Below are positions 8,055 to 24,181 of a stretch of 64,000 bases of DNA, in pieces (position 1 is the first letter of the stretch; every line of letters starts with the position of its first letter). A model generated the notes under the pieces. That model did no database searches, was not told the origin of the DNA, and saw only the letters and a list, made by a program, of their open reading frames with translations. The position numbers and the translations under genes were made by a program. The stretch covers positions 62,001 through 126,000 of the forward strand of contig NC_014145.1 in the NCBI RefSeq assembly GCF_000253115.1. The letters are read 5' to 3'. This stretch comes from Thiomonas arsenitoxydans. GTDB taxonomy: Bacteria; Pseudomonadota; Gammaproteobacteria; Burkholderiales; Burkholderiaceae_C.

Positions 8055-10799
8055 TTGACCGATCCCGACATTCGCCCCTCTCCCGATGCGCTGCTGGCCC
8101 AGGTCCAGCAGGACGCCGAGCAGGCGCAGCGCGGTCGGCTCAAGCTCTTTTTCGGCGCCTCGCCCGGTGTCGGCAAGACCTACGCCATGCTCATGGCCGC
8201 GCGCCGTCTGCGCGACGAGGGCGTGGACGTCTGCGTCGGCCTGGTCGAAACCCACGGCCGCGCCGAGACGGCCCGGCTGCTGGAAGGGCTGGAGCAGATT
8301 CCACTGCGCGAGGTGCGTCACGGCGCGCACCTGCTGCGCGAGTTCGATCCAGCCGCGGCGCTGGCACGTCGCCCCGCCGTGCTGCTGGTCGACGAACTGG
8401 CGCACAGCAACGCCCCGGGCAGCCGACATCCCAAACGCTGGCAGGACGTGGAGGAACTGCTGGACGCCGGCATCGACCTCTACACCACGCTGAACGTCCA
8501 GCACCTCGAGAGCGTGAGCGACATCGTCGGTGGCATCACTGGCGTGCAGGTGCGCGAAACCCTGCCCGACCGCATCTTCGAGCGGGCCGATGAAGTGGTG
8601 CTGGTCGATCTGCCGCCCGACGACCTGCTGCAACGCCTCAAGGACGGCAAGGTCTATCTCCCCGAACAGGCCGCGCACGCCGTGCGCAATTTCTTTCGCA
8701 AAGGCAATCTGCTGGCGCTGCGCCAGCTCGCGCTGCGGCTCACCGCCGAGCAGGTCGAAGGCGAGATGCGCGACTACCGCAGCCGCCGCGTGGGCGGTGC
8801 CGTGTGGGACGCGGCCGAGGCCCTGCTGGTGTGCGCGGGCCCGCGCGACGACATCGGCCTGGTGCGCGCCGCCGCCCGCCTGGCCGACGCGCTACATGCG
8901 CGCTGGCACGTCATCACGGTGGAGACCCCCGCGCTGCAAGGCGCCAGCGAGGCGCAGCGCGACCATGCCCTCGCGCTGCTGCAGCGCGCCCGCGACCTGG
9001 GTGCGCAGACCGCCATGCTGGCCGGTCCCCACGCCGCCGAGGCCGCGCTGGCCTATGCCCGAACCCACAACCTCAACCGCGTCGTGCTCGGCCGCGCCCC
9101 GCGCTGGCCCTGGTGGCGCCGGGTGCTGGGGCGCTCGACCACGGCGGTGCTGGCGCGGCAGGCGCCCGATCTCGACCTCATCCTCATCACCCGCGACGCG
9201 CGTTCGCCGCCCACGGCCCTGGCCGGGCTGCATCCCGCTCTGCCGTCGGCCGATGCACTGATGCGGCGCTACCTGGCCGCGCTGCTGATCTCTGGCGCCA
9301 TCACCCTGCTGGCCAGCCCGCTGCGCAGCTACTTCGACCTGTCGAACACCGTCATGCTGTTCATGCTCGGCGTGGTCGCGGTGGCGCTGCGCTTCGGCCG
9401 CGGGCCCGCGGCACTGGCGGCGGTGGTCAACGTGCTGGCCTTCGATTTCTTCTACGTGCCGCCGCGCTTTTCGTTCGCTGTGAGCGACGTGCAATACGTC
9501 TTCACCTTCAGCGTGATGCTGGGCGTGGGCCTGCTCATCGGCCACCTCACCTCGCACCTGCATTTCCAGGCCCGAGTCGCGGGTCAGCGCGAGCGCCGCA
9601 CCCACGATCTCTACGAACTCTCGCGCGAGCTTTCGGGCGCGCTCACCGTCGATCAGGTGGCCGAGATCGGCACACGCGTGGTGCAGGCCAGTTTCCGCTG
9701 CCGGGCCACGCTGCTGGTGCTCGGTCTGGACGAGCGCCCGCAGCCTGCGGCAGACGTGGCTGCCGATGCCCTCCTGCCTTTCGACGCCGAGCTGGCGCGC
9801 TGGTGCTTGCAGCGCGGCGCGCCAGCCGGCCAAGGCACTGATACCCTGCCCGGCGCGCCGCTGTTCTACCTGCCGCTGAAGGCGCCGATGCGGGTGCGCG
9901 GCGTGCTCGTCGTTGACCCCGGTAACACCCGCCTATCCACCATTCCCGAGCTGCGCCGCTTGCTGGAAACCTGCGCCACCCAGATCGCTATTGCGCTCGA
10001 ACGCATCCACTTCGTCAGCGTGGCACAAGATACCCTGCTGGCCATGCAGGCCGAGCGCATGCGCAACTCCCTGCTGTCGGCGCTGTCGCACGATCTGCGC
10101 ACCCCGCTGACCGCCCTGGTGGGCACGGCTGAAGTCCTCTCCACGCGTCTGGTCGCTCATCCACCAGGCGATGCCGCCACGTTGCACAGCCAGGCGCTCA
10201 GCCTGTTGCAGCAGTCGCGGCGGCTGGCCCGCATGGTGGACGATCTGCTCGACATGGCCCGCCTGCAGTCCGGGCAGGTCACGCTGCGGCAGGACTGGCA
10301 ATCGGTCGAGGAGCTGGTTGGCAGCGCGCTGCGCGCCGTCGATGCCGCTGCCCTGGCGCAGCATCCGCTGCAGATCGACCTGCCCGCAGACTTTCCGCTG
10401 GTGCGGGCCGACGCCGTGCTGCTCGAACGCGTGCTGGTCAACCTGCTCGACAACGCGCTCAAGTTCACCCCGCCCGGCACCCCGCTGGGCGTGCGCGCCC
10501 GCGTGCGCGGAGCAGAAGCCGAGATCACCGTCTGGGACCGCGGGCCAGGCCTGCCCGCAGGGCGCGAGCGGGCGGTCTTCGAGACCTTCACCCGTGGCGA
10601 TCCTGAATCGCCCATCCCGGGTGTAGGCCTGGGGCTTGCGATCTGCCGCGCCATCGTCGAAGCTCATGGGGGCCGGGTGACGGCAGCCAACGCCCCCGAG
10701 GGCGGGGCTGCGTTCAACGTGCGCCTGCCCCTGCACGAGATGCCGCCGCTCGACGCCGCCGCCGAACTCGGCACTGAACCCGCCGGGCCGACCCCATGA
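8055..10799 (+). CDS. kdpD: sensor histidine kinase KdpD
   Basis: A 914-residue membrane sensor kinase starting at TTG 8055, ten bases after kdpC. Domains in order: KdpD N-terminal domain with Walker A GASPGVGKTY (residues 34-43) and VDELAHSNAPGSRHPKRW, a universal-stress-like domain (about 250-375), four membrane helices (about 400-500), a GAF-like region, the HisKA dimerisation domain with phospho-acceptor His near residue 679 (ALSHDLRTPLTAL), and an ATPase domain with N box NLLDNALKFTPPG and G box GVGLGLAICRAIVEAHGG. It senses potassium limitation or ionic conditions and phosphorylates KdpE. Length is slightly above E. coli KdpD (894). Confidence 0.96.
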   Translation: MTDPDIRPSPDALLAQVQQDAEQAQRGRLKLFFGASPGVGKTYAMLMAARRLRDEGVDVCVGLVETHGRAETARLLEGLEQIPLREVRHGAHLLREFDPAAALARRPAVLLVDELAHSNAPGSRHPKRWQDVEELLDAGIDLYTTLNVQHLESVSDIVGGITGVQVRETLPDRIFERADEVVLVDLPPDDLLQRLKDGKVYLPEQAAHAVRNFFRKGNLLALRQLALRLTAEQVEGEMRDYRSRRVGGAVWDAAEALLVCAGPRDDIGLVRAAARLADALHARWHVITVETPALQGASEAQRDHALALLQRARDLGAQTAMLAGPHAAEAALAYARTHNLNRVVLGRAPRWPWWRRVLGRSTTAVLARQAPDLDLILITRDARSPPTALAGLHPALPSADALMRRYLAALLISGAITLLASPLRSYFDLSNTVMLFMLGVVAVALRFGRGPAALAAVVNVLAFDFFYVPPRFSFAVSDVQYVFTFSVMLGVGLLIGHLTSHLHFQARVAGQRERRTHDLYELSRELSGALTVDQVAEIGTRVVQASFRCRATLLVLGLDERPQPAADVAADALLPFDAELARWCLQRGAPAGQGTDTLPGAPLFYLPLKAPMRVRGVLVVDPGNTRLSTIPELRRLLETCATQIAIALERIHFVSVAQDTLLAMQAERMRNSLLSALSHDLRTPLTALVGTAEVLSTRLVAHPPGDAATLHSQALSLLQQSRRLARMVDDLLDMARLQSGQVTLRQDWQSVEELVGSALRAVDAAALAQHPLQIDLPADFPLVRADAVLLERVLVNLLDNALKFTPPGTPLGVRARVRGAEAEITVWDRGPGLPAGRERAVFETFTRGDPESPIPGVGLGLAICRAIVEAHGGRVTAANAPEGGAAFNVRLPLHEMPPLDAAAELGTEPAGPTP

Positions 10800-10825
10800 C
10801 TGCGCCGCACGGTCGCTGCGAGGAG

Positions 10826-10854
10826 GCGCGCAACGCCCTCGGGGAGTTGCGCGC
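10826..10854 (+). other. 9-bp-stem hairpin in the kdpD-kdpE spacer
   Basis: GCGCGCAAC at 10826-10834 is the exact reverse complement of GTTGCGCGC at 10846-10854, with an 11-base loop. It lies in the 73-base gap between kdpD and kdpE, before the GGAGGG ribosome site of kdpE. No T tract follows, so it is not a classical terminator. It could set relative kdpD/kdpE expression or mRNA stability, which is speculation. Confidence 0.45.
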
Positions 10855-10872
10855 AGCACGGAGGGTCGTGCC

Positions 10873-11568
10873 ATGACCACACCCCCCAGCCTCATCCTGG
10901 TGATCGAAGACGAGGCCGAGATCCGCCACGTCGTGCGCACGGCGCTCGAAGCCGAGGGCTGGCGCGTCTGCGAGGCCGACAGCATGGCGCGCGGGCTGAT
11001 CGACGCCGCCTCGCGCAAGCCCGACCTCGTCATCCTCGATCTGGGCCTGCCCGACGGCGATGGCATCGACTTCATCCACCAGTTCCGCGGCTGGAGCGGC
11101 GCGCCGCTGCTCGTGCTCTCGGCCCGCTCGGCCGAAGGCGTCAAGGTAAGTGCCCTCGATCTGGGCGCCGATGACTTTCTCGGCAAACCCTTCGGTGTGG
11201 CCGAACTGCTGGCGCGGGTGCGCGCCGCGTTGCGCCGCCCGCCCGTGAGCGAGGCCGCGCCATCGGTGCCGCTGCGCTTCGGCCGCGTCGAGCTCGACCG
11301 CGTGCGCCGCCTCGTGCGGCGCGACGGCGAAGACCTGCGCCTCACCGCCGTCGAATATCGCCTGCTCTGTGCCCTGGCCAGCCGCCCCGGCCAAGTGCTC
11401 ACCCACCGGCAACTGCTGCGCGAAGTCTGGGGCCCCGGTGCGGTGGAGCATGGCCACTACCTGCGTATCTACATGGGCCGCCTGCGCCACAAACTCGAAG
11501 ACGACCCCGCCCGCCCGAAGCACCTGCTCACCGAGTTGGGCGTGGGCTACCGCTTCATGGCGGATTGA
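10873..11568 (+). CDS. kdpE: response regulator KdpE
   Basis: A 231-residue OmpR-family DNA-binding regulator. The receiver domain shows the acidic pocket E12-D13 (VIEDEAEI), phospho-acceptor D56 in LVILDLGLPDGDG, and the conserved lysine in LGADDFLGKPFG. The C-terminal winged helix contains LTAVEYRLLCALASRPGQV and YLRIYMGRLRHKLEDDP. Partner of KdpD; it activates kdpFABC under potassium limitation. A GGAGGG site around 10861-10866 precedes the ATG. It is the last gene before the accessory island. Confidence 0.96.
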   Translation: MTTPPSLILVIEDEAEIRHVVRTALEAEGWRVCEADSMARGLIDAASRKPDLVILDLGLPDGDGIDFIHQFRGWSGAPLLVLSARSAEGVKVSALDLGADDFLGKPFGVAELLARVRAALRRPPVSEAAPSVPLRFGRVELDRVRRLVRRDGEDLRLTAVEYRLLCALASRPGQVLTHRQLLREVWGPGAVEHGHYLRIYMGRLRHKLEDDPARPKHLLTELGVGYRFMAD

Positions 11569-11721
11569 CCCCCGGGGGGTGTATCGGTACGGCTTGGTGA
11601 AGTCTGCAGTGCAGGGTTCAGAGCTTCCCCAGCCTAACCGCTCGCCAGCACACGACAAGGTGCACCGTGCTGGCTGTGGGTCAAGCTGAGTTGAAGTGCC
11701 GAGTCGTCGCTGGCCGCCCGG

Positions 11722-12009
11722 TCAACGCAGCGCTTCGGCCTCGGCGGCAATCAGGCGGAACTGCCCCAGTGCGGCTTCGAGATCGTCCACGATTTCGGCG
11801 GCGCTCACCTCTGGCGCGGGCAGGTTGTCCATGTCGGAAAGTGAATCGTCCTTCAGCCAGAAAATGTCCGGACTGGCCTTGTCGCGGTTGATGCGTTCTT
11901 CATAGTCGTAGGCGCGCCAGCGGCATTCGGGGTTGTCGGCTGACCACGTGGCGTTCCGGTCATGCCGATTCGCCGGGTGGTAGCACTGCACAAACTCGCC
12001 CAGATCTTC
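11722..12009 (-). pseudogene. C-terminal remnant of type I restriction methylase subunit HsdM
   Basis: About 96 codons remain in one frame, from a TAG just upstream (12010-12012 on this strand) to TGA at 11722-11724. The text EDLGEFVQCYHPANRHDR, then RWRAYDYEERINRDKAS, PDIFWLKDDSL, DNLPAPEV and AAEIVDDLEAALGQFR is the typical extreme C-terminus of N6-adenine methylase subunits of type I restriction systems. The catalytic N-terminal 400 or so residues, HsdS and HsdR are absent, and there is no plausible start. This is a fossil of a former type I system at the left edge of the island. Confidence 0.75.
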
Positions 12010-12551
12010 CTAAACGATTATCAGTGTCTGCCGGATTCAGAAAAAGAAACAGCGCTCGACATAAAAATCAAGCGCTGTCAGTAACTTAAGGATCCAACGA
12101 TACAGAACGACTTCTTATCAAAATTAGAACGGTTATGCGCACCTTTTTTGGTTGTTAGACCCTTCCATCTGAGTGATTAAGGGCACTTGCCGCGTCGTGC
12201 TTCCAGCTTTTTGTGTATAGCGACAGCACTTCCGTCTTCGACACCCGGGAAACACATCAATCGATGTGTCTTTGTTGATAGTGGTAGGGGCTGCTCTGCC
12301 TGCCAGTTCACTGGCGTATAGTGCTTTGCCGTCAACGCATTCTGACTCGTCCACTCCAGCCCTACCATATTGGCCTCGAACCCCAACCTACGCTGGACCT
12401 GCGACAGCCTGCAGAAGAGTAGAGCGAATTGTCGCCAAAGGTCCTAGTACCCGTCGGCGTATCCTCCGAAGGCTTCAACGGTCAGAAGTTTCACACAGTT
12501 TTTCTACCATCAACCAAAAATAGGTGGCTTGGTGCCACAAGGGAGAAACGA
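12010..12551. other. gene-free AT-richer stretch left of the restriction gene
   Basis: Apart from the candidate terminator, I see no convincing gene in this stretch. The short frames here (up to about 85 codons on either strand) lack ribosome sites, recognisable motifs and normal codon use. No helix-turn-helix controller (C) protein, which regulates the EcoRV system of E. coli, is visible. The stretch must include the promoter of the restriction gene starting at 12552 and probably one end of the recombinase-borne island. Confidence 0.5.
12040..12078 (-). terminator. candidate Rho-independent terminator, leftward
   Basis: ACAGCGCT at 12049-12056 pairs exactly with AGCGCTGT at 12071-12078 around a 14-base AT-rich loop. 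Reading leftward, the stem is followed by TTTCTTTTT (12041-12048), a good U tract. It would end leftward transcripts coming from 12.1 kb or beyond. No clear gene on that strand ends here now, so it may have served a lost gene. Confidence 0.5.
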
Positions 12552-12572
12552 TTGACTAATTTCAAAGAAGCG

Positions 12573-12580
12573 CTCGAGAC
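12573..12580 (+). repeat. left target-site duplication CTCGAGAC
   Basis: CTCGAGAC directly abuts the left IS21 end and is identical to 15225-15232. It encodes codons 8-10 (part) of the restriction enzyme. Confidence 0.95.
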
Positions 12581-12633
12581 TGTTCGTGCCGATGGAATTT
12601 TGACCCACCGTGCCGATTCAATTTTGACCCGGG
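12581..12633 (+). repeat. left IS21 end with tandem terminal repeats
   Basis: Contains TGTTCGTGCCGA followed by AATTTTGACCCAC, then a second TGCCGA...AATTTTGACCCGGG unit beginning at 12611. This matches the order of units at the other end (15160-15224 read in reverse). Confidence 0.8.
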
Positions 12634-12777
12634 GTCTAAGGCCGACTGCGTCGCAGTCGGGTGTGGATAAGTCTACGGTTTTTGCGTGGGGTTGGCTCCT
12701 GGTGGGTGGGTTTGGATCCTTGGGGCAAGCTGCGTCGGGCGTAGCCCAGAGCGGCTTGCCCCAAGGGCTTGTGGGGG

Positions 12778-13596
12778 TCAAAGCGGTGTCTCGGGCTCAG
12801 CGGGCTGGGGTGCCTGTGCTGTGCCCGAACGCCTTTGCTCCCGCGCCTTGATGCGGGTCTTGGCGGTTTCCGTGCTGTGACGGAAGCGGTAGCTCTCGTT
12901 CCCGGTTTCCAGAATGTGGCAGTGGTGTGTGAGCCGGTCGAGCAAGGCGGTGGTCATCTTCGCATCGATGAACACGCTGGACCACTCGCCGAAGGCCAGA
13001 TTGGTCGTGATCAGCACGCTGGTGTGCTCGTAGAGCTTGGACAGCAGATGGAACAACAAAGCCCCGCCCGCCTGACTGAAGGGCAGATACCCCAGCTCAT
13101 CGAGAATGACCAAGTCCATACGCAAGAGGCTTGCCGCAATCCGCCCGGCTTTGCCCTGCGCCTTCTCCTGCTCCAGCGCGTTGACCAGATCGACGGTGGA
13201 GTAAAACCGCACCCGCTTGCCGTGCTGCGTGATGCCCGCCACGCCGATGGCCGTGCCCAGATGGCTCTTTCCCGTGCCGGGCCCGCCCACCAGCACGACG
13301 TTGTGCGCGGCTTCGGTAAAGGCCATGCTGGCGAGTTGCCCCACCAGCGTGCGATCAACCCTTGAGGCATCAAAGTCAAACCCCGCTAGATCGCGGTGCA
13401 CCGGGAAGCGGGCCGAGAGGATTTGATGGCGTACCGAGCGCACGGCGCGATCTTCCTGCTCGGCCTGCAGCAAATGCTCGACGAGCCACTGCGCGGCATC
13501 CAGCCTGGCGTTCGTCCCCAGACCTTGCAAATCGGCCCAGGCGCCGGCCATGCCGTGCAGCCGCAACGCCTTGAGTTCCGCAATGACCTCACGCAT
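12778..13596 (-). CDS. istB: IS21 helper ATPase IstB
   Basis: A 272-residue AAA+ ATPase that remodels target DNA for the IstA transposase. Walker [10 protein letters not shown] lies near residue 105 and Walker [14 protein letters not shown] near residue 161, with the family-specific [13 protein letters not shown]. The length is typical for IstB (about 250-265), with a short Pro-rich tail. Its start overlaps the istA end by 8 bases, as in other IS21 elements, which suggests translational coupling. Confidence 0.95.
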
Positions 13597-15118
13597 GATC
13601 TCGCTCCTCGTCAGTCACCCGCAGGCGGTCATAGCGGGCCGTGTCGGCGCGGGGTGGATCGGCCATCGTCAAGGCCGTGGTCACTTGGGCGGGCTGGGGG
13701 CCGGTCTGCAAGCGCCCCATCACGTTGACCACATGCTCCACGCTGATGCGCCCGGACGGGGCCGTGGCTTCCAGCACCAGCGCAGCGGCCACCAGGACCG
13801 CCTCCAGCCCGGATGCGGGCACCAGCGCCAGCACCTGGGCCATGAGCCGGTCGCCCCCGTCTTGCCGCAGCAGCGCCTGGCGCAGTTGCTGCAAGGGCTG
13901 GGGCAGATCGGCAAACGGCGCGCCGTTGCGCAACGCCCCGGGTTTGCGTTGAATCAGCGGCACATAGTGCTGCCAGTCGTAGGTGGTCTGTCCCCGGTTG
14001 GCCAGCCGCGCATGGCGGGCCACACACACGCCGTCATGCACCACGACCACCTCGGTGGGATACACCCGGGTGCTCACCCGCCGCCCGGCGAGTTCACAGG
14101 GCACGGAGTAACGATTGCCAGCCATGGCCACCAGACAGGTGCTGCTGACCTTGACCGTGTTGTCCACATAGCCGTCGAACGCTGTGGGCATGGGCATGAG
14201 GTGCGGCTGCTCGTGCTCGAGCATCTCGGCCACGGTGAACTGGCTGAACTCGGGATGGAAGATCTCCTGCCACAAGCCACGGCAGCGCATGGCCAGCCAG
14301 GCATTGAGTTCGGCAAAGGAGCGCCAGGGCGTCGACAGGGCCTCAATCCACACACGTCGCCTGCTGTCCTGGACGTTCTTCTCCACCACCCCCTTCTCCC
14401 AACCGGAAGCGACGTTGCAGAAGTCGGGGTCGAACAGGTAGTGGCTGCACATCGCCGCAAAGCGCGCGTTGACGTCGCGCTTCTTGCGCGGGTGCACTTT
14501 GTCGACGGCTGTCTTCATGTTGTCATAGATGCCGCGATGCGGCACTCCGCCGAAGGCGGCAAACGCCTGGGTATGGGCGTCAAACAGCATCTCGTGACCT
14601 TGGCTGGGATAGGCCCCCAGCCAGAAGGCACGGCTGGCGCACAGCTTGACGTGGGCAACCTGCACGCGGTACGGCACGCCGCCCACCACCATGCTCTCTT
14701 CACTCCAGTCGAACTGGAAGGCTTCGCCCAGCGCAAACGTCAAGGGCACGAAGGCGTGCACAGCGCTCGTGCCATCGGCCTGTCGCCAAGCGCGCAGTAA
14801 ATCGGTGACGCGGCTGTAGGCGCCGTCATAGCCTTGTCGCTTCAACTCGGCATGCAATGCCCTGGCCGTGCGCCGCTGCGCTTTAGGACGCTGCGCATCA
14901 ATGGCCACGGCCTGCCGGAGCCACTCCACATAGGGCGCGAGCTTGCGCGAGGGTTGTGTTCGCCGCGCCGCGTACCGCGGTACGACATCGCCCGGCTGGC
15001 GTAGCCAGGTACGCACCGTGTTGCGCGACAGCCCCGTACTGCGGGCAATCTCTCGAACGGATTTGTTCTGGCGGAAATGCATCCGCCGGATCTTGCCAAT
15101 CATGTCCATGGTGATCAC
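13589..15118 (-). CDS. istA: IS21 transposase IstA
   Basis: A 509-residue DDE transposase. The N-terminal helix-turn-helix reads [18 protein letters not shown] (residues 22-39). The DDE core shows Asp in FQFDWSEE, Asp in [11 protein letters not shown] and Glu in [12 protein letters not shown], and a Mu-type C-terminal beta-barrel follows ([16 protein letters not shown]). No frameshift is seen. Together with istB it makes the element autonomous. The gene lies antisense to the restriction gene it interrupts. Confidence 0.95.
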
Positions 15119-15159
15119 TCCTGCTCCCCGTGCCTAAAAAAGCAGCAGGGTAGGTGGAA

Positions 15160-15224
15160 CACCCGGGTCAATTTTGCGTCGGCATAACCTTCAAAAGTGG
15201 GTCAATTTTCGTTCGGCACGAACA
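15160..15224 (-). repeat. right IS21 end with tandem terminal repeats
   Basis: Read on the minus strand: TGTTCGTGCCGA, AAAATTGACCCAC, then TGCCGA...AAAATTGACCCGGG. It is the inverted partner of 12581-12633, with somewhat longer spacing between units. Confidence 0.8.
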
Positions 15225-15950
15225 CTCGAGACCAAGCTCAAGGCAAACGGCAACAAATACACAATCAGCGGCGTAGTGAGCCAGGATGGGACGGTCTACC
15301 CCTTGGGAAGTGACACCAAGGTGCTCAGTACCATTTTTGAGTTATTCACCCGTCCACTGATGATTGAACTAGCTCACGACCTAGGGCTGCAGCTCGTGGA
15401 GCCATCGGCTCAGAACCACTACCCAGATTTCACTCTGTGCAGCGGCCCACACGCCAAAAACAAGATTGCTGTCGATGTGAAGACAACCTACATCGAGAGA
15501 CCCGATGACACGTTTGGATTCACGCTTGGCGGTTACACCTCGTTTATTCGGCCAGGCAATGAGAGCAAGAACATAGTGTTCCCATTCACCGATTACACCG
15601 AACACTGGGTAATTGGCTACGTCTACGAGCGGGTTGCTGAGAAGAAGGCAGCCGAATGCGCTGTCTATACGCTAGAACAAATCAAAGACATCCCACTACC
15701 TTACCGGAATGTCCGTGTCTTCGTACAAGAGAAATGGCGCATATCCAGCGACCGGGCGGGGTCCGGGAACACAACTAACATCGGCAGCTTGGTGGGAAGA
15801 ATCGACCAGTTCAGGGATGGCGGCGGGCCGTTCCAAGATGAGAACGAATTTCTGGACTACTGGCGCAACTACGGACGCATTGCGGCTGACAGAGTTAACT
15901 TCAAGAACATAGTGGAGTACCGTGCCTGGCGCAAAAAAAATCCACTCTAA
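15174..15950 (+). CDS. downstream fragment of the EcoRV-like endonuclease, possibly a chimera
   Basis: The frame downstream of the insertion is open into the IS21 end, back to a TTG at 15174. It gives a theoretical 258-residue product whose first 17 residues come from the IS end (MRRHNLQKWVNFRSART), joined to residue 8 or so of the native enzyme. All catalytic residues (QNHYPDFTL, AVDVKTTY) and the R-loop-like AGSGNTTN stretch are kept. There is no good ribosome site before 15174, so translation is doubtful; internal starts would remove the N-terminal dimerisation region. Probably inactive, but an IS-driven active chimera cannot be excluded. Its stop overlaps the stop of the convergent methylase gene. 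Confidence 0.6.
   Translation: MRRHNLQKWVNFRSARTLETKLKANGNKYTISGVVSQDGTVYPLGSDTKVLSTIFELFTRPLMIELAHDLGLQLVEPSAQNHYPDFTLCSGPHAKNKIAVDVKTTYIERPDDTFGFTLGGYTSFIRPGNESKNIVFPFTDYTEHWVIGYVYERVAEKKAAECAVYTLEQIKDIPLPYRNVRVFVQEKWRISSDRAGSGNTTNIGSLVGRIDQFRDGGGPFQDENEFLDYWRNYGRIAADRVNFKNIVEYRAWRKKNPL
15225..15232 (+). repeat. right target-site duplication CTCGAGAC
   Basis: Second copy of the 8-bp duplication at the right IS21 boundary. The restriction gene resumes in frame at 15233. Confidence 0.95.
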
Positions 15951-16933
15951 GCCAGCAAAAGCTGCTGCCGCCCCATCTCAACTTCGAGAATATCCTCATC
16001 CTCGGACAGGTCGGGTGGCGGGAGCCGATTGGCCTCCTCAACGAGATTTCCAGCGCTAATCACCAGCGCCTCTTCCATTTCGCTACGCAGGCTTTCGGTC
16101 GAGCCGACGTGATAGAAGTGGCTGAACGTCTCCATGTGGAAACGTCCAAAGTGCGCCTCCAGATGGGCGTTCTCGCGATACTGGTTGCCCTTCCACATGG
16201 AATATGCAAAACCCGAAGGCAACGCTTTGATGGCATCCGACAATTCGTCAGCCTCTTGTTCAGACCACTTGTTGTAGTAGTCCGCATGCCGACCGATGTA
16301 CGGTGGGTCTAGATACACGAAATCGTCAGCGGACGCCTGTGCCAGGGTTTCCCGCCACGGCTGGCATTTGAAAACCCATTCTTTGCCATGCATGACCTTA
16401 GCAGCCCAGGAAACCTGGTTACAAATTTTTGTGATGAGGGCTTGTCGGAATCGCTCTGGCTTGCGGCAGAAGGGCACGTTGAAGCCGCCCTTTTTGTTGA
16501 ACCGCATGATTCCGTTGAAACAACTGCGGTTCAAGAATACCAAGTCCAAAGGACTCTTGTGCTCATTGAACCGCTTCCGAATCTCATAAAAGTGGTCCTC
16601 CCCGACAGCTAGCAGCTTCGCCCCCTCCTCCTCAAGGAACGCTCGAACTGACATGGAGGTTATATCCCCTCTTTGTACACCCTGGTAGAAGCGGACAAGG
16701 TGCTCGTTCGTGTCACAAAGGAGTGCACGCGGTGGCGCTATGTTGAGAGCGACCGCCCCGGAGCCCATGAAGGGCTCAATCCACCTACCTTGACCATGCC
16801 AATTGATTGCGTCGGCTATCCACGGCACGAGCTTTGTCTTGATGCCTTGAATCTTGATGGGGGGAGCTTTTGCTCTAATGCGGCGAGGTAAGAAGTCGGC
16901 CATTTCATTTTTCACGATATTACTCCCATCCAT
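15947..16933 (-). CDS. EcoRV-like DNA adenine N6-methyltransferase
   Basis: A 328-residue D12-class (Dam-like) adenine methylase. The SAM-binding motif is FMGSGAVALN (near residue 55) and the catalytic motif DPPYIGRHADYYNKW (near residue 203). Stretches IQGIKTKLVPWI, CDTNEHLVRFY, LNRSCFNGIMRFNKKGGFN and HFYHVGST parallel M.EcoRV, so it should methylate the GATATC-type site. The N-terminus is about 15-30 residues longer than M.EcoRV; a GTG at 16915 behind GGGAGT, or the ATG at 16903, may be the real start. It follows the small coiled-coil gene by 40 bases on the same strand, so it is probably read with the recombinase operon. It converges tail-to-tail with the endonuclease gene. No disruption is seen. 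Confidence 0.9.
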   Translation of the reverse strand: MDGSNIVKNEMADFLPRRIRAKAPPIKIQGIKTKLVPWIADAINWHGQGRWIEPFMGSGAVALNIAPPRALLCDTNEHLVRFYQGVQRGDITSMSVRAFLEEEGAKLLAVGEDHFYEIRKRFNEHKSPLDLVFLNRSCFNGIMRFNKKGGFNVPFCRKPERFRQALITKICNQVSWAAKVMHGKEWVFKCQPWRETLAQASADDFVYLDPPYIGRHADYYNKWSEQEADELSDAIKALPSGFAYSMWKGNQYRENAHLEAHFGRFHMETFSHFYHVGSTESLRSEMEEALVISAGNLVEEANRLPPPDLSEDEDILEVEMGRQQLLLA

Positions 16934-16973
16934 GGGCTGCGCCCGCCATTCAGTACCCGCTGCTCGTTAGCCA

Positions 16974-17408
16974 TCACTTCACCACTTTCGAGCGGTCACG
17001 GTCTGGCTTCGGCAACGGCTTGTTCAACATGTCCATGGTGACACCCTTGCTTTCCGCGTTGAGTGCCCAAGTAACGAATTGCTCCAACAAAAGGCTGTTC
17101 TCTGCCTCTAACCGTTCGGCCTTCGCTTTGAACCGCTCAGCTTGCTCTATGGCCGCACGGACGCGCTCGTCGGTAGGAGTCCCGCGCGATACAGGAAGGG
17201 TCCCCTTCAGGGCATCCTTGCGGTGCGCAAAGGCGTTGGCCACTTCGGGATAGCTGGCCAAGGTGAAGCGGGAGTACCGATAGCCCCAAGCTGCCTCCAG
17301 GCTGTCCAGCAGAAGGTCCCACGTCAGCTTGCCTCTCCAAGTGTCGAGCGTGTCGAGGGCCGTGGCAATGTGTTCCTGAGTCAGGTCAGGTGCACGATAC
17401 TTCTTCAT
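16974..17408 (-). CDS. small coiled-coil protein of the recombinase operon (TnpC/GmtX-like position)
   Basis: A 144-residue protein without a recognised domain. The N-terminal half (TQEHIATALDTLDTWRGKLTW) looks like a small helical DNA-binding region; residues about 85-115 (ERVRAAIEQAERFKAKAERL, EAENSLLLEQ) form a clear coiled coil; the tail is basic. Its ATG overlaps the stop of the 669-residue recombinase (ATGA at 17405-17408). The same place and size are taken by TnpC in Tn554-type transposons and by the third small protein in other multi-recombinase modules, so an accessory role in recombination is inferred. Confidence 0.6.
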   Translation of the reverse strand: MKKYRAPDLTQEHIATALDTLDTWRGKLTWDLLLDSLEAAWGYRYSRFTLASYPEVANAFAHRKDALKGTLPVSRGTPTDERVRAAIEQAERFKAKAERLEAENSLLLEQFVTWALNAESKGVTMDMLNKPLPKPDRDRSKVVK

Positions 17409-19414
17409 AGCAATGCCTGCTTCTTGCGCCCCTTGAGGACACGGATGGGTTTCACGTTATCGGCGGTGATGAGGGGCGCGCTGGAAACATCCAGCCGGAT
17501 ACGGGCACCCGTAGGTACTTCAGGGTTCTCCAAGATGGAGAGCAGCAGGGTGACCCGCTCCAAGGTCGTGGCTTGATGCCTGACCCAGGCATCAGCGCCG
17601 TATTCTTCGTCGCTCAGAGCTGCCTTGGCTTGCTTCAGCAGATATTCGGTCTCGCTCTTGAGTTGCCGAAGATTTGCCTCCTTGTGCGCTTCACCTTTGA
17701 CGCATTCCTGCTCTTGGCAGTTGATGCAGTCGCGATACATCTGACACGGCTCGCTCGCGAAATTGTGACGGCACCAGCCATATTCCGTCGTGTGCGCAGC
17801 GGTGAGCCCGAGCCCCTTGAATTCGCTGCGCATCATCAAGTTCCGCCCTGAGACATCAACCGGCTCAAGCTCCGACGTGAAACCAGCTTTCAGTGCTTGG
17901 CTGATTGGCGCTTGCACCTCCTCCGAGGACATGTGGTCGTAGTGCCGGTTTTGCTTGACGTCCTTACGCCCTGAGAAAATTGCGATTTCCGTGCTACTTA
18001 AGCCCCCCATCTGAGCTAGCGTGTTCAGGTAGTGGCGCAGGCTGTGGCTGTTGAGCTCAATCGGAGAGCCATCGTCCTCGGTGTAGTCGAATGCTTTGAA
18101 GATGGAGCGTCGACCTTCCCGAGTCCCGAACCGGCTTGTGATGGCCTCGTAGTCGACGCTGTTGAACATGCACAGGTAAGTCGCCCTGATGGCGTGCATC
18201 TCGTTCGTCCGAATGACCGCGATGGCATCCATGCATCGGAGCTCGGGCGCACCAGGCATGAACGGAAAGGTCGCCGGCAGCATGCCGAGGATGGCGCGCT
18301 CCACATCGTCGAAGAGGTATCCGATTCGCCGGCCTTCTAGCGGCTGTCTTTCAAGCTCGTGCCGATTCGCCCAGGCGTTCGCCTGACTCTCGGAGTCCTT
18401 GTCCCCCCAAAGCACCAGTGCGACATCACTCAGGGTCAACACGCGCTGGCCCCGAAGATGTGCTGCGCCCTCGTGGAGGAACAGCTTGGTCGGGTTGGCC
18501 GTGTACCAGGTCGCGAGCTCGTGGGCTGGGGCCGACACCCGAATCAAGTTGTCTACCGCCTCGCGAGCGACGCCGGCCATGTCGGAAGGCAGCCACTTGG
18601 TAGTGTTCTCAAACCCTTTAGAGCCAGCCCAGCGAAGCCCCAACTTGCCCCTGAACTCGCCGTCGCCGTCCACAAGACAGTCGCGCCGCAACCGCAGAAC
18701 CTCGTTGATGCGCTCAGGGGCGCACACCATCAGGGCGGTCATGCTGGAGGTTATGACGTCCGGCGGGTCAATGGCTAGGTGAAATATGCCAGCCAGAGCG
18801 CGCAGCGCCGCCGCCGACGGCAGCTTCCCCTTCCGGGCTTCGAGAGCCTCTTTGGATATGCGGGAATCCATCTCCTGTGGCTTCTTCATCCCGTGCTTCC
18901 ATCGCTGGCGCAGAGAGATGAACTGCTTGGAGGCCATGAACTCGCTGATGTATTCCAACTGGCCAGCTATGCGGTACGCCACCGATGGCGACACCTGCTG
19001 CTTGGCCAGCGCCACTGCCGTGTCCAACACGACTGGGTCTACGGCAGTCGGTCGTGACCCCTTTGACTGCTGGCGTAGCGCCGCTTCAAGGCATCGCAGC
19101 GCGGCAATCCGCGTGCCTTGCGACGTCACTGGCCGCTTGTCTTGTAAGTAAATGACAGCCGCCTTGGCGAAGTTCAAGAATGGCTCTGGCAGGCTCGGCT
19201 CCGGCTTGTTGCCACTCGCAGCTTCTAGTGTGCTGAAGACAACCCGATTCGCCTTGTTTTGCCCCTTCAGGAAGCCGTCGTCCCACGCATTTTTGTCGAA
19301 CTGCCGATGCGCGCCCATGACTTCGGATAGCCGGCATAGCTCAACGAACGCTTCAAGGTTAGCGTGAGGCTCAAGCTCGGCCCGGGGCGTGAAGTGAAGA
19401 ACAGGTGCGTTCAC
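17405..19414 (-). CDS. large tyrosine recombinase with zinc-ribbon-like C-terminus
   Basis: A 669-residue tyrosine recombinase. Catalytic signatures are APERINEVLRLRRDCL (first Arg, near residue 230), HSLRHYLNTLAQ (His-x-x-Arg) and the nucleophile region RKDVKQNRHYDH. After the core comes a Cys-rich segment (WCRHNFASEPCQMYRD, CINCQEQEC) that may bind zinc, then a long helix to about residue 625 (LRQLKSETEYLLKQAKAALS). The architecture resembles TnpB of Tn554-type elements (about 630 residues). It overlaps both neighbours by 4 bases, showing strict translational coupling. It should act with the other two recombinases in excision and integration of the island. Confidence 0.8.
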   Translation of the reverse strand: MNAPVLHFTPRAELEPHANLEAFVELCRLSEVMGAHRQFDKNAWDDGFLKGQNKANRVVFSTLEAASGNKPEPSLPEPFLNFAKAAVIYLQDKRPVTSQGTRIAALRCLEAALRQQSKGSRPTAVDPVVLDTAVALAKQQVSPSVAYRIAGQLEYISEFMASKQFISLRQRWKHGMKKPQEMDSRISKEALEARKGKLPSAAALRALAGIFHLAIDPPDVITSSMTALMVCAPERINEVLRLRRDCLVDGDGEFRGKLGLRWAGSKGFENTTKWLPSDMAGVAREAVDNLIRVSAPAHELATWYTANPTKLFLHEGAAHLRGQRVLTLSDVALVLWGDKDSESQANAWANRHELERQPLEGRRIGYLFDDVERAILGMLPATFPFMPGAPELRCMDAIAVIRTNEMHAIRATYLCMFNSVDYEAITSRFGTREGRRSIFKAFDYTEDDGSPIELNSHSLRHYLNTLAQMGGLSSTEIAIFSGRKDVKQNRHYDHMSSEEVQAPISQALKAGFTSELEPVDVSGRNLMMRSEFKGLGLTAAHTTEYGWCRHNFASEPCQMYRDCINCQEQECVKGEAHKEANLRQLKSETEYLLKQAKAALSDEEYGADAWVRHQATTLERVTLLLSILENPEVPTGARIRLDVSSAPLITADNVKPIRVLKGRKKQALL

Positions 19415-20943
19415 GCTGCCCCCTCTTCACGACCTCGCTGCGACCAGATTTGCGCGCACAGCGAGATGACTTCCCTGACGGCCCGGATGGGCTCGTCATT
19501 CACGGCCGCCATGCGGTCATCCGATGTCCACTTCTGGCGCTCTGCTTCGAGTCGATGCAGCACCTTCTCGTGCGGTGCATCGAGCCAAGGCTCGAACCGG
19601 AAGCTGGAGTAGCAAGCCACCGGCTTGTTGAAGCCACATCCGGCACCCTTACCAGCACAGCTGCCCAGTCCCTCTGTAGTAATACGGAAATCGTGAATGC
19701 GGCTCCCGGGGGCGCCCCGGTGAGTGCTGTGAGCCTCGTCCTCCACCACCTGCCCCTTGAAGGCTTGGGCGAGTGGCGCTAGGAACTTGCTCAGCGCCTT
19801 ATCGTAGCTCTCGATAATCTTCGGCGATGCAGAGACATAGCACTCAACATTCTGGAGGTCCGCATGGCCGAGACGCTCCGCGATGACCAGCTTGCTGGCC
19901 CCCTCTTCCGCCATCCGAGTCCCGAAGGTATACCGGAACCGTTGCGGGACGATGTGCATTGGCGCGAAGTCGAGCCTCGCAGTCGGAGGAGCAATTTCTC
20001 GGAGCAGCTGTATGAACCACTGAGAGAGGGTATGCGGCGTGCAGTGCCCAAAGAACAGGTCCGACTCGGCGCGAATCTGTCTTCTAGGTCCTCGGGGCAT
20101 TACGAGGTCAGATGAGAAAAAAGGGCTGTTCTCCGTTTTTCCGGACGCCAACAACTCGTCGCGATGCGCCAGGATGAGTTGCGAAGTCTGAGCAGAGATG
20201 TCGAAGGGCACGAAGCTCGCCCGCGCGTGGTCCTGCCCGGTCTTGACCTGGGGCAGCTTCAGAGTCGAACCTTTGGGGTCGAAGTCGCACAGTTTGAGAG
20301 AGGCGTACTGTGAGATTCGACCGCCGCAAGCCAATAGCAATCTCGTCAGCAGCAACGTCCACAGTGGCAGTTCTCCTCGGCCATAGGCGGCGTCCGCGGC
20401 TGAGTACAATGCGGTGTACTCATCCTCGCTGAAGGGCCCCTTGACGGAGTCTCGCGTCCGCACGGCGTCCCCCTTGGTGTTTCCCGGCTTTCTGTGCTCT
20501 CGGAGGTACGCAGCGCAATCTGCCGTTACGCCTGGTAGCCGGAGTTCAACCCACTTCTGGAGCAGCCCATTGAGTGTGCCGAGGCGCCATTTTTCGTTGG
20601 GGCGCAAGGTAGCCGCATAGTTCGCGACTGCTTGTTCGTCAATCACCCAGGACGCACGCCGTGGGGAGTTGTCGATAAAGTGGATGAACGCCCGAAAAAG
20701 ATTATCCACGTGACTCGAGGAATGGCCCCGAACGTAGGGCAAAAGTGCTGCTTTCAGGGATGGCTTGTATGCCTCTGCTCCAGCAATTAGCTGCCCAAAA
20801 TCGAGCCTAGCGATAAACGGACCGTCAGACCACTCCCATACATTCAAGCGGGGGTCAAAGGTCGAGCCTGAACGCGTGATGACACGCTCGGGCACCGTTT
20901 GCACGAGAGCATAGGACTTCAACTCAATGGCCAGAGACATCAA
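19411..20943 (-). CDS. second tyrosine recombinase, atypical active site
   Basis: A 510-residue protein of the tyrosine recombinase fold. The first catalytic Arg is in LLACGGRISQYASLK (near residue 210); the box II region reads IVPQRFRYTFGTRMAEEG, where the usual His of His-x-x-Arg is replaced by Gln; the candidate nucleophile Tyr lies in LQNVECYVSASP. A Cys-containing stretch CAGKGAGCGFNKPVACY (near residue 440) follows, and a C-terminal helical extension completes the protein. The start overlaps the upstream recombinase gene by 20 bases and the end overlaps the next by 4. The Gln substitution may be tolerated or may indicate a structural role in a recombinase assembly. Confidence 0.78.
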   Translation of the reverse strand: MMSLAIELKSYALVQTVPERVITRSGSTFDPRLNVWEWSDGPFIARLDFGQLIAGAEAYKPSLKAALLPYVRGHSSSHVDNLFRAFIHFIDNSPRRASWVIDEQAVANYAATLRPNEKWRLGTLNGLLQKWVELRLPGVTADCAAYLREHRKPGNTKGDAVRTRDSVKGPFSEDEYTALYSAADAAYGRGELPLWTLLLTRLLLACGGRISQYASLKLCDFDPKGSTLKLPQVKTGQDHARASFVPFDISAQTSQLILAHRDELLASGKTENSPFFSSDLVMPRGPRRQIRAESDLFFGHCTPHTLSQWFIQLLREIAPPTARLDFAPMHIVPQRFRYTFGTRMAEEGASKLVIAERLGHADLQNVECYVSASPKIIESYDKALSKFLAPLAQAFKGQVVEDEAHSTHRGAPGSRIHDFRITTEGLGSCAGKGAGCGFNKPVACYSSFRFEPWLDAPHEKVLHRLEAERQKWTSDDRMAAVNDEPIRAVREVISLCAQIWSQRGREEGAA

Positions 20944-22180
20944 GGTCCTCCTGCAGCTTCAGTGCGATTGCACGCCCCTTGCGCCGCGTGTGGCGACGTG
21001 TGTAGTTGCGCGCCGACTGTGAGTTTTCTGTCCAGCCTTGCTGCTCGTTGCGAGCCCGCGCCTCCTCGATTTCGGATATGCCCATCTCGTCGGCCTGCTC
21101 GGAGAAGCGCTCATTCCACGTATGTCGCATGACATGGCTGGTCAGCGTCACAGGAAGCCCTGGGCAAGCCGCGCGGAGTTGTTGGAACAGCTTCCCAATA
21201 CTCCGTGTAGATAGTGGCTTTCCATCCTGAGCAACGAACACCTGCGGGTGCCTGCGCGCCGCCCGAATGCGATAGCGCTCCACGTTAATGTGAGCCAGAA
21301 GTGCGCGCATGATGCCGGGAAGCAATTCGAGTTCGCGGTCGTTTGTCTTCGTGCCCACCGGGGTACGACGGGTGTCTTCCGATGCATCAGCGCGACGCAG
21401 GACACCCAGCTTCGACAACTGCTGTTTGATGTCGCTGATTTGCAGGCCAAGCAGTTCGCCACTGCGCATGCCCGTCGCGAGCAACAGCATGACAATCACC
21501 CAGTTCCGATGGCGAACAAAGCCCCGTTGCCAAGGGTTGTCTGGACTCTCCGGATGCACAACTCGGAGCAATCGGTCCTGGTCCTCCTTTGAGAGGCCCT
21601 CCCGAGCATCCATCTGAGCCCGCTTGGTCACCTTGGGAATCTGCGCCTTGAAGGCTTTCAGGGCCTCCACACTTTCCAAGTTGAGTTGGTGGCGCTGCTG
21701 CTGAGGAAGCCCCGCAGCGTAGTAGGTGGCAAGGAAGCCCAGGTAGTCCGCCATGTAGCGCATCCGGTTGGCGTGGTTGGCCTTACCCACGGCCTCCACC
21801 TCGACGGCGGCCTTGCTACGGCGCATCGGGATACTCTTGAGGTTGACCACCTGCTGTGTCGCTTCCTGCTCTTCCTCGTGAGCTAGCGCCTTCATGGGGT
21901 ACTGCGCGACATCAGCGAGCCGGGCCAACTCGGGCATCGTCAAGAACTGTCCGTTACGCAGGCGTCCGAGGACATCGAGTCGCGGCTTGGCGTCCAGTTC
22001 TCGGTGCAGCAACGCCAGGCATTGGCAAACGGCGTGAATGGTGTTCGCTGCGCGCCCTCGTTTGCGGAACTTTTGCAGGAACAAGGTCACCGCATGTACA
22101 GGAAGGCCATTCGGCCCCTTCAGTACAGAGTGATGTTCGCCGTTTTGAAACCTGAAGCGTTTTGCGATGTACCGCGGCAT
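20924..22180 (-). CDS. first tyrosine recombinase (integrase) of the operon
   Basis: A 418-residue site-specific recombinase with a complete active site: Arg in LATGMRSGELLGLQ (near residue 245), His-x-x-Arg in TSHVMRHTWNERF (near 350), and Tyr in QSARNYTRRHTRRKGR (near 395). The N-terminal part (AVTLFLQKFRKRGRAANTIH) resembles a core-binding SAM-like domain. It is the promoter-proximal gene of the leftward operon and starts about 70 bases inside the right edge of the island, next to the ssb terminator. TnpA of Tn554-type elements and the integrase of gamma-mobile-trio modules hold the same position. Confidence 0.85.
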   Translation of the reverse strand: MPRYIAKRFRFQNGEHHSVLKGPNGLPVHAVTLFLQKFRKRGRAANTIHAVCQCLALLHRELDAKPRLDVLGRLRNGQFLTMPELARLADVAQYPMKALAHEEEQEATQQVVNLKSIPMRRSKAAVEVEAVGKANHANRMRYMADYLGFLATYYAAGLPQQQRHQLNLESVEALKAFKAQIPKVTKRAQMDAREGLSKEDQDRLLRVVHPESPDNPWQRGFVRHRNWVIVMLLLATGMRSGELLGLQISDIKQQLSKLGVLRRADASEDTRRTPVGTKTNDRELELLPGIMRALLAHINVERYRIRAARRHPQVFVAQDGKPLSTRSIGKLFQQLRAACPGLPVTLTSHVMRHTWNERFSEQADEMGISEIEEARARNEQQGWTENSQSARNYTRRHTRRKGRAIALKLQEDLDVSGH

Positions 22181-22252
22181 CTATCCACCGTTCTTGCATG
22201 TTCGTAGTTGAGCCGATTTCCAAGTAGAACACAAAAACGGTGTGTTGATAAG

Positions 22253-22285
22253 AAAAAAGGCCCGCGTCCTCTCGAAGCGCGAGCC
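22253..22285 (-). terminator. Rho-independent terminator of ssb
   Basis: GGCCCGCG at 22259-22266 pairs with CGCGAGCC at 22278-22285 (one G-T pair); reading leftward the stem is followed by CCTTTTTTC (22252-22260 region). It lies 32 bases past the ssb stop and probably marks the chromosomal side of the island junction. Confidence 0.75.
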
Positions 22286-22316
22286 TGCAATCAACAAAAA
22301 GTCTACAAGGTGCTAT

Positions 22317-22814
22317 TTAGAACGGAATGTCGTCGTCCATGTCGCTGAAGTCGCTCGCCGGTTTGCTGGCGGCCGCGGCGGGGGCGCGGCTGGGGGCGGG
22401 GCGGCTGGGGGCGCGGCCTGAGTCGGCCTCGCGGTTGCGGCTGTAGCCTTCGTCGTCTGCACCGCCGCCGCCCCCGCCATCACGGCCGCCGAGCAGTTGC
22501 ATTTCTTCGGCGATGATTTCGGTGGTGTATTTTTCGACGCCGTCCTTGTCGGTCCACTTGCGGGTTTTCAGGCGGCCTTCCACATACACCGGGCGGCCTT
22601 TTTTGAGGTATTCGCCCGCGATTTCGGCGAGCTTGTCATAGAACACCACGCGGTGCCACTCGGTTTCCTCGCGCTTTTCGCCGCTGGATTTGTCTTTCCA
22701 GTTGCGCGACGTGGCGAGGGTGATGTTGCAGATGGCGGAGCCGCTGGGGGCGAAGCGGGTTTCGGGGTCGCGGCCGAGATTGCCGACGAGGATGACTTTG
22801 TTGACGGAGGCCAT
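22317..22814 (-). CDS. ssb: single-stranded DNA-binding protein
   Basis: A 165-residue SSB. The OB-fold starts [20 protein letters not shown], continues through [20 protein letters not shown], and is followed by a Gly/Pro/Ala-rich linker with GGGGGG and the acidic tip MDDDIPF that recruits replication and repair proteins. The frame is open further upstream, but the ATG at 22812-22814 matches the family start. It stands downstream of the MFS gene and uvrA cluster in the order common in betaproteobacteria. Confidence 0.95.
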
Positions 22815-22918
22815 GAGGTGTCCTGAATTGCGGCGTCCCGCGGGCTGCGGGACGATGGCGGCAAGCATAACGCCAGCCGCCGCCTCACTCGCGGCCGGGG
22901 TGAGGTGCGGCTAGGGGT

Positions 22919-24181
22919 TCAGGCGTTTTGCGGTTGCGCGGAGGCGGCGTCGGCCTCGGCGGGTTTGTGGCGATTGGGCGGAGGCTGGATGGTGAACGAC
23001 ACCAGCAGCCACAGCGCGGCCAGCGCGGCAGCGACAAAAAACACATCTTCGCTGCTGTATTGCGACAGCCATCCGCCCACCGCGCCACCGGCAAACAGGC
23101 CGAGCGATTGCCCGGTGTTGTACACGCCCATGGCCAGACCCTTGCGGTTGGCAGGCGCGGTGCGCGACACCAGCGAGGGCAGCAGCGCTTCCATCAGGTT
23201 GAAGGACAGAAAGAAAAAGAACAGCGCGGCGATGAGCGCCACGGGGTTTTTGTAGCCTGCGGCAAAGCCCAGCATGGTCAGCACCAGCAGGGCCACGCCG
23301 CCGACGAACACGGGTTTCATATAGCCGTATTTCTCGGCGTAGATGATGCCGGGAATGGATACGGCAAACGAAATCAGCGTGACGGGCAGATAGACCATCC
23401 AGTGGTGCAGCAGGGGAATGCCGGCGTATTTCACCAACGCCACCGGCACGACCACGAACATGCTGACCTGCAGAAAGTTGACGACAAAAATCGAGAGGTC
23501 GAGCTTGAGCAGCGCCGGGGTGAACACCGCCTTGGCCCAGTGGCCCTGCACCTCTTCGGAGTGCGTGGTCATGGGCACGTTGGGCACGACCCAGATGACC
23601 ACGGCAATGGCCAGTAGCGCAAGAATGCCGGTGAGGTCGAACATGCCGGGCACCGAGATGGCGTGATAGATGGGCGGGCCCAGCACCAGCGAGAGGATGA
23701 AGGAAAAGCCGATGGTCATGCCCACCATGGCCATGGCCTTTGTGCGGTGCTGGTCGCGGGTGGAGTCGGCAATCATGGCCGAGATGGCCGCCGAAATGGC
23801 CCCGGCGCCCTGAATGGCGCGGCCGATGATGATGAGGTAGAGGTTGTCGCTCGCTCCGGCGACGAATGAGCCGATGGCGAAAATCAGCAGTCCGAACACC
23901 ATCACCGGCTTGCGGCCGAAGCGGTCGCTGGCCACGCCGAAGGGGATCTGCAGCACCGCTTGCGTCAGGCCGTAGATGCCCAGCGCCAGACCGACGAGGA
24001 ATTTATCGTGTCCGTGGGGCAGATGCTCGGCGTAGATGGAAAACACCGGCAGGATGAAAAACAGCCCCAGCATGCGCAGGCCGTAGATCGACGCCAGCGT
24101 ACTGCTGGCGCGGCGCTCGGCGGGCGTCATGGCGTCCTTGGGGGCTGTGGTTTTGGTCGATCGGGAAGATTTGGAAGCCAT
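22919..24181 (-). CDS. major facilitator superfamily transporter
   Basis: An inner-membrane transporter of 420 residues with about twelve hydrophobic helices. The MFS signature between helices 2 and 3 reads GVASDRFGRKPVMV, and helix 4-5 contains GRAIQGAGAISAAISAMIAD. Family members of this kind are proton-driven exporters; the substrate cannot be read from the sequence. The start was placed at MASKSSRSTKT (24179-24181), because residues upstream lack similarity to a first helix. It is divergent from uvrA, and the ssb-MFS-uvrA arrangement is conserved in Burkholderiales. Confidence 0.85.
   Translation of the reverse strand: MASKSSRSTKTTAPKDAMTPAERRASSTLASIYGLRMLGLFFILPVFSIYAEHLPHGHDKFLVGLALGIYGLTQAVLQIPFGVASDRFGRKPVMVFGLLIFAIGSFVAGASDNLYLIIIGRAIQGAGAISAAISAMIADSTRDQHRTKAMAMVGMTIGFSFILSLVLGPPIYHAISVPGMFDLTGILALLAIAVVIWVVPNVPMTTHSEEVQGHWAKAVFTPALLKLDLSIFVVNFLQVSMFVVVPVALVKYAGIPLLHHWMVYLPVTLISFAVSIPGIIYAEKYGYMKPVFVGGVALLVLTMLGFAAGYKNPVALIAALFFFFLSFNLMEALLPSLVSRTAPANRKGLAMGVYNTGQSLGLFAGGAVGGWLSQYSSEDVFFVAAALAALWLLVSFTIQPPPNRHKPAEADAASAQPQNA

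Follow-up and report, generated by a model that had tools for sequence, protein, structure and literature searches.

Locus of the interrupted endonuclease gene

The chromosome of Thiomonas arsenitoxydans carries an EcoRV-like restriction-modification pair, in which the endonuclease gene is interrupted by an insertion sequence (IS) of the IS21 family and is followed by a convergent methylase gene. The pair lies in a window of 64,000 nucleotides (G000:C2:62001-126000), where G000 is the organism's own genome; among the genomes compared, G005 is a congener and G040 belongs to the same family and another genus. The host strain comes from acid mine drainage and is called Tm. arsenitoxydans 3As in the available part of PMC4589449 and Thiomonas sp. 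3As in that of PMC2829063. The available main text of the former makes no mention of EcoRV or IS21, and that of the latter makes none of IS21. A literature search for papers that combine at least three of the subjects Thiomonas, EcoRV family, restriction-modification, IS21 and methylome returned only one paper, which concerns another organism. Rfam and tRNA scans of the window gave no match. The features of the interrupted gene, the element and the methylase are listed below by window position.

12552-12580, plus strand: 5' end of the endonuclease gene, with a TTG start, codons 1-9 and two bases, the left duplication copy included (placed by AGGGAG and by the fit of the N-terminus)
12573-12580, no strand: left copy of the 8-bp target-site duplication, CTCGAGAC (locus L009)
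12581-15224, minus strand (istAB on the minus strand): IS21-family element of 2644 bp with perfect 12-bp terminal inverted repeats
12778-13596, minus strand: istB, transposition ATPase, 272 residues (Pfam PF01695, IstB_IS21, E-value 2e-84)
13589-15118, minus strand: istA, transposase, 509 residues (NCBIfam NF033546, transpos_IS21, E-value 8.4e-100; Pfam PF22483, E-value 2.6e-21)
15174-15950, plus strand: post-insertion open frame of 258 codons, with a TTG start in poor context and 17 IS codons fused in frame to the endonuclease
15225-15232, no strand: right copy of the target-site duplication, CTCGAGAC
15225-15950, plus strand: rest of the endonuclease gene, with the complete catalytic domain (family and fold searches)
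15947-16933, minus strand: D12-class N6-adenine DNA methylase, 328 codons (Pfam PF02086, TIGR00571)

Reconstruction and family of the endonuclease

The whole interrupted gene runs from TTG 12552 to its end at 15950, and the insertion point, duplication included, covers codons 8-10. AGGGAG sits six bases before the native TTG, and the nine codons upstream of the IS21 element encode MTNFKEALE. Excision of 12581-15232, which is the element plus one duplication copy, joins the flanks into 248 codons with a single terminal stop, exactly as the sequence-only reading had proposed. The joined N-terminus resembles those of intact homologues, for example MSNFKQAFEAKL (P0003), MKNFKEAFEAKL (P0005) and MFNFKDAFQAKL (P0004), and the joint therefore agrees with natural uninterrupted genes. 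A profile built from 105 of the 119 homologues P0002-P0120, with only lengths of 240-262 residues admitted (14 were dropped by length), scores the joined protein at 427.5, the post-insertion frame at 422.2 and the bare fragment at 418.9; none of 1000 random N-termini (988 distinct) did as well as the joined one, their highest score being 425.7. In the joined protein 31 residues precede YPLGSD, which is the commonest number, found in 49 of the 97 homologues where this motif was found. The insertion is confirmed as real and the reconstruction as sound.

All family, domain and fold searches for the endonuclease were run on the frame 15174-15947, which contains the 15225-15950 remnant; the coding remnant after the element has no stop and no frameshift. 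Pfam PF09233 (Endonuc-EcoRV) matches with an E-value of 1.4e-55 and 188.8 bits against a curated cut-off of 25, EcoRV of the PDB is matched by the post-insertion frame with an E-value of 1.2e-78, and the plasmid-borne EcoRV is 51.2% identical over 95% of the query. Membership of the EcoRV family, which had been proposed from the letters, is supported by both sequence and fold. The companion proposal that PLGSDTKVLSTIFELF is nearly unique to EcoRV fails, as 1397 of 1599 candidate proteins matched at E-value ≤ 0.001 and the stretch or a near form of it is present in most of the 14 homologue sequences inspected.

Residues D85, D101 and K103 of the query correspond to D74, D90 and K92 of EcoRV (numbering taken from the alignment of the query to PDB EcoRV) and are invariant in 40 aligned sequences, the query included. 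The equivalents of Q69, N70, G182, G184, N185 and N188 of EcoRV, which we take to have roles in recognition, are likewise invariant in this alignment. Since the equivalents of both the catalytic and the recognition residues are invariant, the specificity of the endonuclease is predicted to be GATATC. The catalytic role of D74, D90 and K92 in EcoRV is given in the available part of PMC4081073.

IS21 element

The element has istA and istB, its two ends share the perfect 12-bp inverted repeat TGTTCGTGCCGA, and it is flanked by a short target duplication; together these features place it in the IS21 family, and the perfect repeats and identical flanks are as they had been read beforehand. Nine full copies are found in the genome, the copy in the endonuclease gene counted, and they are 100% identical, which indicates recent transposition. 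A tenth copy is split into two pieces (1985844-1986652 and 1988192-1990030), and more diverged relatives are also present. Direct target duplications flank four of the nine full copies (8, 9, 9 and 7 bp). The other five identical copies (loci L002-L006) have no target duplication of 3-12 bp, which suggests later recombination or deletions beside them. CTCGAG forms the core of the target duplication at the endonuclease gene; this hexamer is among the most under-represented palindromes in the G000 stretches L080-L099 (38 observed against 173.8 expected), and in G005 it is the lowest.

A protein of 241 residues (P0001) is 100% identical over 93% of the query and has its first residue at the opening codon of the right duplication copy, a sign that another assembly may contain the same insertion. 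The longest contig for P0001 has 162017 bases and is not the 3As chromosome. The likely reason for this start is a draft assembly broken at the same IS, so that another strain may have the insertion as well.

Methylase

The methylase gene is convergent with the endonuclease gene and overlaps its stop by 4 bp, so that a D12 methylase adjoins the endonuclease as in a type II pair. It scores 185.3 bits with TIGR00571 against a cut-off of 114.85, and no other PF02086 match was found in the genome. The frame is open, without stop or frameshift, and the product retains 55 of the 56 positions that are invariant in 18 other aligned loci. Judged by its sequence, the methylase looks intact, and to that extent the methylase-plus state attributed to the strain stands.

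Island at the end of ssb

A GInt-type island at 12124-22325 has the EcoRV-like pair as its only recognised cargo, a setting that the sequence-only reading missed. The features of the island and of its left border are as follows.

11722-12010, minus strand: type I hsdM remnant, left of the island (11722-11991 is 71% identical to the C-terminus of G005 HsdM)
12124-12132, no strand: putative attR, TTAGAACGG
16974-17408, minus strand: ginD-like small protein, 144 residues (no Pfam or NCBIfam match; homologous stretch in G040)
17405-19414, minus strand: ginC-like protein, 669 residues (no Pfam or NCBIfam match; homologous stretch in G040)
19411-20943, minus strand: ginB-like tyrosine recombinase, 510 residues (Pfam PF00589, E-value 6.7e-14; NCBIfam NF041502, 354.6 bits against a cut-off of 350)
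20924-22180, minus strand: ginA-like tyrosine recombinase, 418 residues (Pfam PF00589, E-value 3.8e-12; 90% identical homologue in G040)
22317-22325, no strand: putative attL, overlapping the ssb stop codon

The gene order at 16974-22180 fits the ginABCD order given in the available part of PMC5385486, by whose description the genes are likened, and the cargo begins at the ginD stop. The same part of that paper describes GInts that are inserted at the end of ssb and whose attL overlaps the end of the gene, and gives imperfect direct repeats of 10-17 nt and a cargo minimum of 2.5 kb. The Thiomonas island resembles the GInts described there in its recombinase-like genes with a small fourth gene, in its cargo just after ginD, in its putative short direct repeats and in its insertion at the end of ssb, but its cargo from attR to the ginD stop, taken without the IS and one duplication copy, is about 2.2 kb, slightly below that minimum. 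In the window TTAGAACGG occurs on the plus strand at 12124 and 22317 only, and nowhere on the other strand. The repeats have 9 identical bases, or 11 with one mismatch, and a 9-base match of some kind also turned up in 131 of 2000 mononucleotide shuffles of the left flank; taken alone, this repeat is only suggestive of the island ends. Among the literature searched for ginABCD together with restriction-modification, only PMC5385486 was found.

The gin operon of G040 also adjoins ssb and its DNA is 81% identical, with homology that stops at window position 16970, just past ginD. Beyond that operon (L124, G040:C92:68500-84000) lie a RecD2-like helicase, a double C5-cytosine methylase and a protein of 381 residues, which has no Pfam or PADLOC match, contains one PD...ExK-like stretch and is perhaps an uncharacterised endonuclease. 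A far att repeat was sought at this locus and not found, and the helicase, the C5-methylase and the 381-residue protein are candidate cargo only. In the congener G005 a type I system (hsdM, hsdS and hsdR) lies between the kdp region and ssb; in the window the DNA homology to congeners ends at 12010. The end of ssb is therefore a place where two related genomes (G040 and G005) carry other restriction-type genes, and the Thiomonas locus indicates that an EcoRV-type pair can be the sole recognised cargo of a GInt-type island there.

The EcoRV-like pair has no match in any of the 12 other congeneric genomes, and the PF09233 family is found in 1 of 100 relatives and in 3 of 399 genomes of the order, the strain's own genome being in both counts. 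Given this absence and rarity, the island probably brought the pair in recently, and IS21 struck the pair afterwards.

Probable loss of restriction and alternative explanations

The insertion cuts the native TTG and its AGGGAG off from the gene body, and restriction is therefore most likely lost. In the proposed course of events, a GInt-type island would have integrated at the end of ssb and brought the EcoRV-family pair as its only recognised cargo, and a recently moving IS21 element would have interrupted the endonuclease gene at codons 8-10. Parting the native start and ribosome-binding site from the coding body would most likely abolish restriction, and the undamaged convergent methylase would continue to modify its site, predicted to be GATATC, so that the cell would shield its own DNA and no longer cut foreign DNA. 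It is highly probable that the locus is to be understood in this way, as an EcoRV-family pair on a GInt-type island in which the IS21 insertion most likely abolishes restriction and the methylase should keep modifying.

The knocking out of an endonuclease by an IS, which leaves a lone methylase, is an ordinary and already known kind of event. As an example of a strain that has probably lost restriction but kept its methylase, the Thiomonas locus is unusually clean. An undamaged target duplication, a coding remnant free of stops and frameshifts, and IS copies without a single difference make the event look recent. The available part of PMC12707154 mentions orphan methylases.

Several findings weigh against the loss of restriction with a working methylase. 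Avoidance of GATATC is a possible mark of a long-active enzyme, and the site is not avoided in 400 kb of G000, where the 25 sites observed compare with an expectation of 32.9 (a ratio of 0.76 and rank 39 among 64 palindromes, whose median ratio is 0.68); for the congener G005, 400 kb give a ratio of 0.92 (rank 48 of 64), and the count of zero in 12011-22318 is uninformative at such length. A tblastn search of 9001-24000 at E-value 1e-4 with two controller proteins, from E. coli and Acinetobacter, brought up no homologue near the gene, though it could miss a diverged controller. A promoter scan of 11950-16100 revealed no promoter-like site before the native start; this is weak evidence, since the one site that it gave lies inside the gene and is no better than those of shuffles. 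The methylase has Leu131 where all 18 compared loci have Phe. The complete catalytic domain of the endonuclease is still open in the 258-codon frame from TTG 15174 inside the IS, and the AlphaFold model of the product retains the EcoRV fold. The restriction-minus state that had been attributed to the strain remains likely, qualified by this open catalytic domain.

Decay of the whole pair, methylase included, would leave neither enzyme active. Leu131 would fit such decay, as would the probable recent arrival of a pair that is unmatched in all 12 congeneric genomes, but the methylase frame has no stop or frameshift and 55 of the 56 invariant positions are kept, and decay of both genes is improbable.

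Restriction could also persist, perhaps weakened, through a working chimera, in which translation from TTG 15174 would yield a transposon-capped EcoRV-like enzyme that the cell would tolerate thanks to its intact methylase. In the fused frame, which is open, 17 IS-derived residues stand in for the first 7 endonuclease residues; the model of the product has a helix at residues 15-28, and its best structural match has a template modelling score (TM-score) of 0.89 by target length and 0.85 by query length. The Shine-Dalgarno consensus is the yardstick for both start contexts: GGG lies six bases before TTG 15174, but the nearest longer purine-rich stretch there, AGGTGG, lies at 16 bases, whereas AGGGAG lies six bases from the native TTG. 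The same promoter scan found no promoter-like site at the IS end. All three outward frames at this end near 15174 are open for 12-29 codons, each with a start codon, and a fusion is therefore expected by chance. The mean predicted local distance difference test score (pLDDT) of the product is 50 for residues 1-10 and 69 for residues 11-20, against 82 and 72 in the intact homologue P0003. A working chimera is very improbable.

Comparison with other members of the EcoRV family

The EcoRV system of the E. coli plasmid pLG13 (record NC_005019.1) has the same catalytic residues and fold in its endonuclease, which is 51.2% identical, and its partner is also an adenine methylase (51% identical). It differs in the divergent orientation of its methylase gene and in a helix-turn-helix gene that runs into the start of the endonuclease gene, whereas in the Thiomonas pair the genes converge, such a controller was not found and the endonuclease gene is interrupted. 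The Acinetobacter pANC7454.2 system (NZ_CP156812.1) shares the convergent layout with a 4-bp overlap, with identities of 55% for the endonuclease and 60% for the methylase, but its endonuclease gene is uninterrupted and is preceded by a helix-turn-helix gene.

With the queries used, an adjacent methylase was found at 16 of the 28 other loci L031-L058, and seven of these 16 converge with the endonuclease. L059 was left out of the counts, its match being confined to the IS-derived part of the query (residues 1-19). The endonuclease frame is open over at least 250 codons at 22 of the 28 loci, and L052 is cut by a contig end. At five loci (L049, L050, L054, L057 and L058) the endonuclease genes look interrupted, frameshifted or truncated, and a methylase adjoins three of them (L050, L057 and L058); all five come from metagenome-assembled genomes, so that errors of assembly may account for some of the breaks.

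The only relative among phage records, at 31% identity, is from Halogranum tailed virus 1 and appears in two records. Among uncultivated viral contigs of IMG/VR, an EcoRV-like endonuclease is present at two loci, L126 and L127. Fusion was considered for L126 and L034, whose N-terminal frames are long, and was rejected: Pfam shows the EcoRV domain only, and an inner ATG that gives a normal length is visible in L034 and in L127, the frame and match figures of L127 being equal to those of L126. At L127 the EcoRV-like endonuclease is followed by a convergent methylase-like frame.

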